Source: Swaminathania salitolerans | Lineage (GTDB): Bacteria > Pseudomonadota > Alphaproteobacteria > Acetobacterales > Acetobacteraceae | NCBI RefSeq assembly: GCF_007988945.1 | Contig: NZ_BJVC01000002.1 | Coordinates: 310,001 to 374,000 of the forward strand | Direction: 5' to 3' | DNA length: 64,000 nucleotides | Shown: in pieces, positions 10,873-18,864 of the stretch | Layout: each line of letters starts with the position of its first letter | Position numbering within the stretch: position 1 is the stretch's first letter | Made by a program: the position numbers and the translations under genes | Notes under the pieces: model-generated | What the model saw: only the letters and a program-made list of their open reading frames with translations | What the model was told of the DNA's origin: nothing | The model's database searches: none

Positions 10873-10977
10873 ATCATTGCGTGGCGTAGCCAACCCGACC
10901 GAACCCTGTCAAACGCTGATGCGGTCACTTCGGATTGCGGATTATTGCACCTCATCGTCCTGCTGGGAGAAGCCCTC

Positions 10978-11649
10978 TTGAACACCCCTGTTACAACCGT
11001 CCTGTTCGATCTTGACGGCACCCTGATAGACAGCCTGCCCGACCTCGCGGAGAGCGGCGCGGCGCTTCTCGAAAGCTATGGGCTGACCCCGCTCGCGCCG
11101 GAATCCGTTCGCGCCATGATCGGCGATGGCGCACGCAAACTTGTCGGGCGTCTCCTCATTGCCGCAGGAGATACGGGACCGATCGATCGCGACGAGGCGC
11201 TCGAACGTTTTCTCGCGTTCTATACGCCGCGCGCGGCTCTCAAAACGCGACTCTTCCCCGGAGTAAAGGCCACGCTCCAGACGCTGGTCGAAAACGGTAT
11301 CGCCTGCGCCATCTGCACGAACAAGCCTGCCGAAGCCGCCCGTCTGATCGTGGAGAAACTCGGACTGAGCCCCCTGATCGACGCGATCGGCGGCGGAGAC
11401 AGTTTTTCCGTCCGCAAGCCCGATCCGGGACATGTCATCGAGACGCTGCGCCTCATGGGCCGTCCGGTCTCGGGTGCCGCCATGATCGGCGATCATCGCA
11501 ATGACATGCTGGCCGCGCGCGACGCCGGTCTGCCCGGCATTTTCGCGGCCTGGGGATATGGCGATGCAAGCATGTCCCGCGACGCAACCGCCATTGCGCG
11601 CAGGATCGAGGACGTTCCGCCACTTCTGGAGAAAGTAACGGCACTCTGA
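10978..11649 (+). CDS. gph: Phosphoglycolate phosphatase (HAD superfamily)
   Basis: HAD-type hydrolase with the nucleophile motif VLFDLDGTLIDS, motif II ICTNKP and the acidic motif GDHRNDMLAARDAG. The overall pattern matches Gph, which removes phosphate from 2-phosphoglycolate formed during DNA repair. The frame is open from 10945, but TTG 10978, preceded by GGAG at workable spacing, places the DxD motif at the usual distance from the N terminus and gives 223 residues. HAD specificity is hard to assign; another small phosphate ester is possible. Confidence 0.8.
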   Translation: MNTPVTTVLFDLDGTLIDSLPDLAESGAALLESYGLTPLAPESVRAMIGDGARKLVGRLLIAAGDTGPIDRDEALERFLAFYTPRAALKTRLFPGVKATLQTLVENGIACAICTNKPAEAARLIVEKLGLSPLIDAIGGGDSFSVRKPDPGHVIETLRLMGRPVSGAAMIGDHRNDMLAARDAGLPGIFAAWGYGDASMSRDATAIARRIEDVPPLLEKVTAL

Positions 11650-11656
11650 CCCGCGC

Positions 11657-11691
11657 GTCCGGAGGAGGTGAACACACCACATCCTCCGGAC
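11657..11691 (+). terminator. Hairpin after gph
   Basis: Perfect 10-bp stem GTCCGGAGGA / TCCTCCGGAC with a 15-base loop, just after the gph stop. There is no T-run (AGTATTGCAG follows), so it would need to work as a roadblock, RNA-end stabiliser or factor-assisted terminator. Confidence 0.45.
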
Positions 11692-12282
11692 AGTATTGCA
11701 GAACGATTTCTTATCTCGAACATTTTCGATATCTATACTGCCTTTACCGGCAAACATATGAAAACAAACATTAGATATTATGTATTATCCTTACACTGTA
11801 TATATACATTTCTATATCCCTCGTTTCGTTTCGTTTCTTGCATGCAACATAACGGTCGATAAAACCGATCATATTTCGGTTTCAAAAACTAAATATGTTC
11901 GATCAGAACAAAAAAAAATTCATCTCGTCACGATGTGAGTTCGTTCGACTCGCGACGTTTCCTGCATCATATATCGGCCGACCTTGAGCGAACTTCATTA
12001 CACAAAAGAAAAAGGTTACAAGTAATGAAATGTGCATTAATATTAATATATGATTAGGTTATATATCAATAATTAACGAGAATATGACATGCATTTCCGT
12101 GATAATTATATGAAACCTAGAGATCGAGCATGTAGATCCTGAAAGGATTTACCCGATTATCTGAGAGCGCCTCTTGTATACAAGGGTATATATGTAAGTG
12201 TAATCTCTGATAACTCAAGGTACATGGGTGGTCTCTTTTCACTTTTTATTTGTTGCTTCTGTTTATAGTAAGTGGTGATAAG
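11692..12282. other. Strongly AT-rich spacer upstream of the Hint/AIDA-repeat gene
   Basis: About 590 bp with a composition unlike the rest of the window: many A and T runs, a TTTCG tandem (around 11823-11837), repeated TATATA-like steps and no plausible gene. Features inside are a 12-bp palindrome at 12173-12184 and several possible -10 hexamers that I cannot rank. Long AT-rich leaders before large surface-protein genes are often horizontally acquired or silenced by nucleoid proteins; that is inference here. Confidence 0.7.
12173..12184. promoter_or_regulatory. Palindrome resembling a GntR/FadR-type operator
   Basis: CTTGTATACAAG is a perfect 12-bp palindrome about 100 bp before the start of the Hint/AIDA-repeat gene. 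Its core, TTGTATACAA, fits the TnGTnnnACnA form typical of FadR-subfamily GntR regulators. No GntR gene lies in this window, and a single site in AT-rich DNA could occur by chance. Confidence 0.35.
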
Positions 12283-15200
12283 ATGACCGACTTCCCTACT
12301 TCCGGAACCTATACTCTTAAATTCGCCTATAGCACCGACGCGGGTGGCGCGACTATCTACAAGGAGCGCATCGATGGTGTTCTGAATCAGGTCGAGGAAT
12401 GGCGAAATGTCGCGTTCAGAACCGCGGAAGTCACGATCAGACCGACTGGTGACGGGAGATTATATATCGATATCCCGATGGAATCCGGACAGACCGTTAC
12501 CATCAAGGTTCAGCCCGGAGCAAACAACCGGTCCTGGAGCACCGACGGTTCCGAGGCCATCATGTTCTGGCAGCAAGAGGCTGGCCAGACCGCTTATTGG
12601 TGGTTTGTCAATCCATCGGTCGACACCACAAACTATACGTTCAATATCAGCCAGGATCTGAAAAGCTACAAGATCAGCGCGAAAGTGACGGGCAATGACG
12701 GGTCCGTCGAACATCTGATCAACGGCAATGACAGCTTCGACTACAGTTATACACCCACAGACTATCTGGTGCAGGTCTATAACGCGAGCGGTGTTTTCGT
12801 CAGCGGTGCCGATACACTCAGCGGGGCCCTCACTTCGGGGCAGACGGCGGTCATCCATTCAGGAGGCGTTTTCGAGAACGGCGCGCTGCAGCATGCGGTT
12901 ATTTCCGGACAACCCGGAGGAGAGATCGGAGGAAGCGTCTCCGTCGACGGGTCGAGCATCATCGTCGGTGGGGCCATCGTCCAGAGTGCAGTCGTCAGTA
13001 TGGCGGGAGGTGCAGAACTGAGCGGTACGATCACCAATCGCGGCGCCATCTCTGGCGGAACCCTTCTCGGGGCGGGCGGGACGGAGATCGTCTATGACGG
13101 CGGTTCGATCAGCGATCAGTTTTCTTACGGGATCCGTGTCGTTTCGTCGGGAGGGACGATACTGAACGGAGCGGTGCAGTCAGGGGCGACCGATACCATA
13201 CTCGCCGGGGGTGAAACGTCCAATGGGGCACTTTATGCCGGTGCATTGCGCGTAGTCTCTTCGGGTGGCATAGCGAACACCCCCTCGATCGCCACGGGTG
13301 CTACAGTCGACGTCATGTCGGGAGGAACACTCAACGGTGCAACCAATATCGGCATGATTTCCGCCCAGAGTGGGGCGATGCTCACCGGGGAAATTTCCAA
13401 CACAGGAACGATCTCTGCCCTGTCGGGCGTTACCATCAGCGGTATCGTGAGAAACGGCGGCACGATAACGACCGGTGACCACGTCCCCATTTTCGGTACC
13501 ATATACAATAGCGGGTATATCTCCGGGACGAACATTATCGCCCCAGGCGCGACGGAGATCATCTATGCAGGTGGCGTCGCTCAGGATCAGTCTAATGAAG
13601 GGACACGCATCGTCTCGTCGGGAGGGGTCATCCGGAACGGCGTAGTCGCTTCCGGTTCGCTCGACACCGTTCTTTCCGGAGGCTCCACCGTCCAGGGAGT
13701 TCTGTATGGCGGGGCCACGAGAGTGGCCTCCTCGGGCGGGACGATCATCAACCCGACCAATGTGGGGGCAACCGTCGCGATCATGTCCGGCGGTTCGCTC
13801 GTTGGTGCGATCAATACCTCCGGAACGATCAACGCGGAATCCGGGGCCATACTGGAAGGTACGATCACCAATGGTGGCACCATATCCGGTGGAACCCTGA
13901 CCGGCAGCGGCTCGACCGAAACTGTCAGCGCGGGCGGCATCATCGAGGATCAGGTTTCCTATGCCGATCGCACGGCATCCTCGGGCGGGACGATACGGAA
14001 CGGCGTCATCGGGGAGGGTGGCACCGATACGATCCGCTCCGGAGGGGTTGCCGGCGGCGTAACGGTCGTGCAGGCTGCTGGACGGCTCATCCTCGACGCG
14101 GGCGCTGTCGTGACCGGCAGCGTCGATCTCCAGGGCCGCACCGGAATGCCCGCCGTGCTTACCATCTCGGATGTTCCGCTGCCCGGTTTCCGGATCACGG
14201 GTTTCGGCGCGGGAGACGTCATCGATCTTGCCGGGATCAAGCGCGCGGATGTGGTCGAGGTATCCTTCATCGACGAAGGCAATACGGTCGTATTCCGTAT
14301 GAAGGACGGCTCGACCGAGTCACTCAATCTCGCCGGGGCCCAGGCTGCTGGATACAAGCTCACCGACGGAAGCGATGGCACGCTCGTCTATCAGACATGT
14401 TTCCTCGCAGGGACGTTGATCGAGACATCTGCAGGGCCGGTGACGGTGGAAACGATCAGACCCGGAACCCTGGTGCGGGTCTATGGATGCGAGGACGAAT
14501 ACCGCGCCGTCATATGGACCGGTTTCAACCATATCAACGTGAACCGCGATCTCCCTGTCGCGGAGGCCGGGTATCCCGTGAGGATCTGCCGCGATGCCAT
14601 AGGGCCATCCACGCCCGATCGCGATCTCCTGGTGACTGCCGAGCATTGCCTCTATATCGACGGCGTATTCATCCCGGCGCGGATGCTCGTGAACGGACAA
14701 TCGATCCAGTACGACACGTCCATCGACAGCTATTCCTACTATCATCTCGAAACCGAGCGTCATTCGATCATCTCCGCGAACAACACGCTCACCGAATCCT
14801 ATCTCGATACCGGCAATCGATCCGCCTTCGCTCTGGACCCACAGCACCCCACAACCGGGAACAGACATGGCTGCTGGAGCACCGATGCAGCGGCACCGCT
14901 CGATACACGACGGGAGACTGTGGAGCCGATTTTCCGCACCCTGCAGGCGCGGGCCGCCATCTTCCCGGGAGGCGTCGAGCCGGCACAACCACTGTTCGAC
15001 GAGGATCCGGACCTCATGCTCCAGAGCGACCGGGGCGAAACGTTCCTTCCCCTTCGTCAGAACGGCAAGCTGGTCATCTTTTCCCTGCCGGTCGACTGCG
15101 GCACCCTCACCCTGAAATCGCGCTGCTTCTGCCCGGCGAGCGATATAGGTCCTTTCATCGACGACAGACGGACACTCGGCGTACGCGTCGGAAAGATTAC

Positions 15201-15435
15201 CTGTTTCTATGCAGGGATGATGGTTCCCTACGCGCAGCATCTGAGGGAAGACGACCTGACCGGATGGGAGCCGCCTGCCGCGAACGCCGAGAGCCGGTGG
15301 ACACGAGGCGCGGGAGCACTGCCTGCGGCTCTGACAGAAACCGGTAACCCGTTCATTCTGGCCATCGAGATTCTCGAGACCGGACGCTACAGGATCGAAA
15401 GCGCCGGGCTGCAGACTTATCGCCGGCAGGGATAA
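12283..15435 (+). CDS. Hint-domain protein with AIDA-like strand-loop-strand repeats
   Basis: A 1050-residue protein in three parts. Residues 1 to about 180 are a beta-rich unique region with many aromatic residues. About 190-640 are tandem units of roughly 20 residues built on SSGGTIxNGxVxSGxTDTxxxGG, the strand-loop-strand repeat seen in AIDA/autotransporter passengers. From Cys706 (CFLAGTLIETSAGPVTVE) a Hint (hedgehog/intein) domain of about 150 residues follows, with the splice-like block LLVTAEHCLYIDG. The last ~170 residues are unassigned. There is no N-terminal signal peptide and no C-terminal beta-barrel, so export, if any, must use a C-terminal signal or another route. ATG 12283 is preferred over a TTG at 12250. 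Hint domains cleave the peptide bond before their cysteine; the target and role here are unknown. Confidence 0.85.
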   Translation: MTDFPTSGTYTLKFAYSTDAGGATIYKERIDGVLNQVEEWRNVAFRTAEVTIRPTGDGRLYIDIPMESGQTVTIKVQPGANNRSWSTDGSEAIMFWQQEAGQTAYWWFVNPSVDTTNYTFNISQDLKSYKISAKVTGNDGSVEHLINGNDSFDYSYTPTDYLVQVYNASGVFVSGADTLSGALTSGQTAVIHSGGVFENGALQHAVISGQPGGEIGGSVSVDGSSIIVGGAIVQSAVVSMAGGAELSGTITNRGAISGGTLLGAGGTEIVYDGGSISDQFSYGIRVVSSGGTILNGAVQSGATDTILAGGETSNGALYAGALRVVSSGGIANTPSIATGATVDVMSGGTLNGATNIGMISAQSGAMLTGEISNTGTISALSGVTISGIVRNGGTITTGDHVPIFGTIYNSGYISGTNIIAPGATEIIYAGGVAQDQSNEGTRIVSSGGVIRNGVVASGSLDTVLSGGSTVQGVLYGGATRVASSGGTIINPTNVGATVAIMSGGSLVGAINTSGTINAESGAILEGTITNGGTISGGTLTGSGSTETVSAGGIIEDQVSYADRTASSGGTIRNGVIGEGGTDTIRSGGVAGGVTVVQAAGRLILDAGAVVTGSVDLQGRTGMPAVLTISDVPLPGFRITGFGAGDVIDLAGIKRADVVEVSFIDEGNTVVFRMKDGSTESLNLAGAQAAGYKLTDGSDGTLVYQTCFLAGTLIETSAGPVTVETIRPGTLVRVYGCEDEYRAVIWTGFNHINVNRDLPVAEAGYPVRICRDAIGPSTPDRDLLVTAEHCLYIDGVFIPARMLVNGQSIQYDTSIDSYSYYHLETERHSIISANNTLTESYLDTGNRSAFALDPQHPTTGNRHGCWSTDAAAPLDTRRETVEPIFRTLQARAAIFPGGVEPAQPLFDEDPDLMLQSDRGETFLPLRQNGKLVIFSLPVDCGTLTLKSRCFCPASDIGPFIDDRRTLGVRVGKITCFYAGMMVPYAQHLREDDLTGWEPPAANAESRWTRGAGALPAALTETGNPFILAIEILETGRYRIESAGLQTYRRQG

Positions 15436-15557: not shown

Positions 15558-18864
<3,307 letters not shown>

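Follow-up and report, generated by a model that had tools for sequence, protein, structure and literature searches.

The gene for a 1050-residue protein in a 64,000-nucleotide stretch of Swaminathania salitolerans DNA (the window) raises the question of how a protein that resembles an autotransporter passenger leaves the cell, and what its Hint domain does. The original prediction placed this reading frame behind an AT-rich region, and the frame proved to be real (Table 1). Its passenger-like character was confirmed by matches to the AIDA-I-like repeats NF033176 (E 5e-5) and to the solved TibA passenger 4Q1Q (E 2e-4), with weaker similarity to Ag43b. A signal peptide is absent, as had been claimed; the maximum 11-residue Kyte-Doolittle mean in the first 45 residues is 0.19, compared with approximately 2 in exported controls. 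The claimed lack of a β-barrel also holds, since no barrel domain was found in the protein and no PF03797 in the genome. A classical (type Va) autotransporter is ruled out by the missing signal peptide, C-terminal barrel and PF03797. The convergent downstream gene (15558-16463, minus strand) encodes a DUF3108 protein that seems unrelated to the Hint gene.

Table 1. Features of the Hint gene and its upstream region (window positions).
Feature	Position	Strand	Remarks
Terminator-like inverted repeat	11657..11691	+	14-nt arms, 93% complementary, 7-nt loop
AT-rich intergenic leader (promoter + 5′ region)	11692..12282	.	591 bp, 34.2% GC
Strand-loop-strand (SLS) repeat/Hint_2/C-domain protein, 1050 aa	12283..15435	+	ATG 12283; stop ends 15435
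N-terminal region, aa 1-180	12283..12822	+	0 Cys; no Pfam match; no relative in ~100 family passengers
Strand-loop-strand repeat array, aa 181-620	12823..14142	+	predicted β-helix, AIDA-I/TibA-like
Passenger end cap before Hint, aa 621-705	14143..14397	+	common to many paralogs; 20 BLAST rows, best E 1e-13
Hint_2 domain, aa 705-843	14395..14811	+	Cys706 = 14398-14400; Thr785-x-x-His788 = 14635-14646
Undescribed C-terminal all-β domain, aa 902-1050	14986..15432	+	signature GPF-DDRR-LGV ... GW ... RWTxG

The leader starts just after the terminator-like repeat that closes the upstream HAD hydrolase gene (10945-11649; HAD_2). Against a window average of 62.2% GC, it contains the lowest-GC 500 bp of the window (0.338), the next non-overlapping stretch being 0.524. 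The view that the leader is unlike the rest of the window is therefore correct for that stretch of DNA, but the trait is not peculiar to this gene: shorter dips (GC approximately 0.28-0.40) lie near the start codon of nearly every paralog described below, that of the window member being the longest. Positions 12060-12310 fold somewhat better than shuffled sequences (z −2.4). The leader gave no Rfam match, direct repeats or similarity to the other loci compared, and readings as an RNA element or a mobile remnant were dropped on these grounds; its promoter density is not above that of shuffles. The leader is most simply read as an ordinary regulated promoter region rich in AT.

Regarding the Hint domain, the Pfam scan of the whole protein returned Hint_2 (PF13403) alone, with E 2e-34 and 119 bits against a gathering cut-off of 28.4; Cys706 is the nucleophile position, as the original prediction had it. 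The active site is not degenerate. Cys706, Thr785 and His788 are invariant in all 21 paralogs of the genome, and the same three residues, together with Pro778, Asp781, Asn804 and His821, are invariant in 78/78 relatives that cover the Hint domain. These relatives belong to a set of 80 picked by the C-terminal domain alone to avoid circularity; a 101-member set selected by motif would have been circular and was not used for these residues. Where an intein would end, the protein carries the segment H827-SIISANNTLT-E838-S-Y (intein blocks F/G matched by eye), in which Glu838 is followed by Ser/Thr and then by Tyr/Phe, each in 80/80 relatives. The penultimate His, terminal Asn and +1 Cys/Ser/Thr of inteins are thus replaced by Glu-Ser/Thr-Tyr/Phe, so that Asn cyclization and splicing are not expected, and a splicing intein is ruled out. 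As the catalytic residues are kept, cleavage or acyl transfer is expected instead. A polymorphic toxin with the Hint pre-toxin layout was rejected as well; in this protein the part that stays constant lies at the C-terminus, with no toxin domain behind it.

In a Foldseek search, the AF2 model of the Hint domain matched the bacterial intein-like (BIL) domain 2LWY (TM 0.69 on the target) and also the gp41-1 intein, with a weaker match to Hedgehog 1AT0. BIL domains share with this protein the HINT fold, Cys1 and TxxH, and the absence of a +1 nucleophile (PMC7664689). In contrast to BIL domains, a dedicated domain follows Hint here and no terminal His-Asn is conserved, and C-terminal cleavage is therefore not expected in this family. 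The residue set supports putative thioester formation at Cys706 followed by hydrolysis or transfer, and cleavage would probably occur at this residue.

Hint is followed by a conserved domain that the original prediction had missed. This C-domain of approximately 150 residues stands behind Hint_2 in 21/21 Hint_2 proteins of the genome and in all distant family loci with a readable Hint region. Its predicted model is all-β (pLDDT 80), without a confident fold match in the PDB, and profile and sequence searches found no Pfam match and no PDB sequence match. In a sample of 142 genomes from across the class, the C-domain is confined to the taxonomic family Acetobacteraceae. Hint followed by a further region is the layout of Hog proteins (PMC2362128), and a Hedgehog-like attachment has to be weighed, in which the C-domain would act like an adduct recognition region and an outside nucleophile (a sterol or hopanoid, a sugar or an amine) would resolve the Cys706 thioester, fixing the passenger covalently to the surface or to another molecule. 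Hedgehog and Hog proteins likewise combine a secreted-type N-terminal part, Hint and a further C-terminal region; the lack of an intein Asn and +1 nucleophile, the constancy of the following domain and its many invariant polar and aromatic residues all speak for such attachment. Against it, the C-domain sequence is unrelated to any solved structure and its model resembles nothing in structural comparison, neither an acceptor enzyme or substrate nor evidence of an adduct was found, and Hint_2 in a genome of another family of the same class does without the C-domain, which is therefore not needed for Hint chemistry. Attachment of this kind is considered improbable. Slightly more doubtful still is its fullest form, in which Hint and the C-domain would be a bacterial counterpart of Hog, the C-domain presenting the acceptor, and a heptosylated passenger exported in one step would be mounted covalently on the surface.

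The Hint gene is not isolated, another point that the original prediction had missed. In the source genome (2.92 Mb in 9 contigs) there are 21 Hint_2 genes. Over the alignment from the Cys to the C-terminus, their products share 33-45% identity with the window member; the Cys, TxxH, His and GPF-DDRR-LG...GW...RWTxG are invariant in the paralog alignment. The module from Hint to the C-terminus usually measures 335-360 residues (approximately 345; extremes 319-379) whatever the cargo, whereas passengers range from approximately 75 to approximately 1360 residues (76-1358 by count) and their N-terminal sequences also vary. A single-protein scan for direct relatives found none, and relatives were identified by an alignment-based scan. 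Of the 249 genomes examined from the taxonomic family, 151 carry the C-domain, 63 of them strongly, including members of Acetobacter, Gluconobacter, Gluconacetobacter, Asaia, Bombella, Commensalibacter and others. Large paralog families and a C-terminal Hint_2 on secreted-type repeat proteins are features shared with other Hint_2 proteins, including the RTX-Hint proteins of other alphaproteobacteria, which differ in cargo (RTX in place of strand-loop-strand repeats) and, in the class-wide sample, in lacking the constant C-domain. In that sample of 142 genomes, Hint_2 outside the family was seen in one genome of another family (G270; loci L193-L199), which holds 16 Hint_2 genes without the C-domain, one of them behind an RTX array; in the four that were read, the tail is short, with Ala as the last residue in two and Gly in one. 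In the source genome (G000), three contig ends (C3:354830-355112, C4:1-2033 and C7:1-1583) fall within or next to Hint-C genes. At the end of C3 the target repeats are present and the 3′ part of the gene is missing, and C3 and C4 or C7 may accordingly adjoin via one family gene.

A further component missed by the original prediction is a set of heptosyltransferases. The window protein gave five matches to the heptosyl-target repeats TIGR04415, individually weak (E 0.1-0.4), and matches over the cut-off were found in paralogs. Family genes account for 33/35 TIGR04415 matches of the genome, and a 171-codon fragment at the C3 contig end for the last two. Three TibC/Aah-type heptosyltransferase genes (TIGR04414) scored 531-599 bits against a cut-off of 200, and all three enzymes contain the C-x2-C-x15-C-x11-C pattern of the TibC iron finger (PMC4358343). 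In the region C1:371046-380114 (L010), a tandem pair of Hint-C genes has two TibC-type enzyme genes and another glycosyltransferase gene as direct neighbors. At least four further genomes (G084, G148, G191 and G227) show this layout of enzyme and tandem Hint-C genes. TibC and the strong Hint-C family co-occur, 39/249 genomes carrying both (odds ratio 8, p 5.5e-11). In addition, a listed family gene is found no more than 12 kb from 23/50 TibC genes, where 2.2 would be expected. Both counts are inflated by shared ancestry and related sequences, but the link is seen again and again, in 16 genomes. The AIDA-I, TibA and Ag43 systems with their BAHT heptosyltransferases likewise combine a strand-loop-strand β-helix passenger with TibC-type genes clustered with passenger genes, but the family described here has no signal peptide and carries Hint and the C-domain where the barrel would be. 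Heptosylation cannot apply to all members, since SLS turns are scarce or absent in seven paralogs. The genome evidence supports heptosylation, and it is likely that at least part of the family is modified in this way.

Another reading is that the window gene encodes an intracellular repeat protein or a decaying paralog with no extracellular role. The absence of a signal peptide and of a nearby partner gene would agree with such a protein; however, its 1050 codons are open, the catalytic residues of Hint and those of the C-domain have all survived strong divergence (approximately 40% identity), and the cargo composition and the TibC linkage also speak against it, making this reading very improbable. 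Regarding that composition, passengers are acidic (median pI 4.3) and contain 0.17% Cys compared with 1.34% in the module, in part because the repeats are rich in Gly, Ser and Thr; 74/98 passengers contain no Cys at all, and several paralog passengers do contain it.

No exporter gene adjoins the Hint gene in the window, in agreement with the original prediction that no neighbor explains export. The suggested search for type I secretion genes elsewhere in the genome revealed one canonical type I operon on a different contig, which had also been overlooked. The single HlyD over the curated cut-off lies in an operon with an HlyB-like ATPase on contig C5 (88-98 kb; L039:13877-19752). The same operon encodes a Sel1 protein of 587 residues, a two-part glycosyltransferase of 998 residues and a ChW protein of 335 residues. 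Type I export would fit the missing signal peptide, the acidic, Cys-poor passengers and the small last residue, which is Ala, Gly or Ser in 18/21 family proteins compared with 37% of other genes (p 5e-6). RTX repeats, which count for type I export and which a Hint_2 protein from another family carries, were not found in the window protein by the Pfam scan. The phylogenetic profile is of low power: HlyD of the type I class is over the cut-off in 236/249 genomes of the taxonomic family, so that its presence says little, and the strong family is found in 0/10 genomes without it (p 0.07).

Export by another route, through a second ABC/TolC system or through lysis or vesicles, with the Hint-C module serving assembly or anchoring and cleavage being incidental, would agree with the lack of an adjoining exporter in the window and with one relative locus (L159:2900-13335; genome G069), where a C39-type ABC transporter, HlyD and TolC stand beside the family gene. 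That exporter has a likelier cargo in the two adjoining small double-glycine leader peptides, and the Ala/Gly/Ser terminus with acidic, Cys-poor cargo fits C-terminal one-step export; the other route is therefore considered rather unlikely. L159 looks like a microcin export locus that shares its site with a Hint-C gene, and L103 has a similar exporter and peptide. As the exporters of L159 and L103 sit with double-glycine peptides, linkage of the family to type I export by gene neighborhood was not convincing. For the window protein, type I export remains slightly favored.

Taken as a scheme, the window protein would be a glycosylated, self-clipping secreted or surface protein. It would be synthesized in the cytoplasm without a signal peptide, and TibC/Aah-type enzymes would O-heptosylate its strand-loop-strand passenger there. 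One-step export from the C-terminus would follow, most likely via the single canonical type I system of the genome, the export information being carried by the constant module of Hint and C-domain, whose small last residue is conserved. Hint would then form a thioester at Cys706 and cleave there, which would free the Cys-free acidic passenger or hand it to an acceptor, while the 345-residue Hint and C-domain part would stay behind. The processed polymer suggested in the original prediction gained no support from the analysis. The architecture, intact Hint residues, missing signal peptide and family size can be read from the sequence itself; type I export, cleavage in vivo and the fate of the passenger are inferred. 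The complete scheme of heptosylation, type I export and Cys706 cleavage is given an even chance, an estimate that allows for the steps not being independent.

Each component class is already known. In the open-access literature searched, the combination, the C-domain and the scale of the family are not described; one paper on a cellulose-overproducing acetobacter mutant includes in its list of mutations a gene with a Hint domain, its function given as unknown. What seemed an odd single protein is a member of a large, almost unstudied family of probably secreted surface proteins. If the scheme is true, cytoplasmic heptosylation, barrel-free C-terminal export and Hint clipping would be joined in one system. 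To our knowledge, these three chemistries have not been described together. If the counterpart of Hog were real, the result would be a barrel-free and sortase-free display with up to approximately 20 paralogs per genome in parallel. Acetic acid bacteria, a group with insect symbionts as well as producers of food and cellulose, seem to invest as many as approximately 20 genes per genome in a single design for display or secretion, and if the model is right, it would give a directly testable role to a domain that is missing from Pfam.
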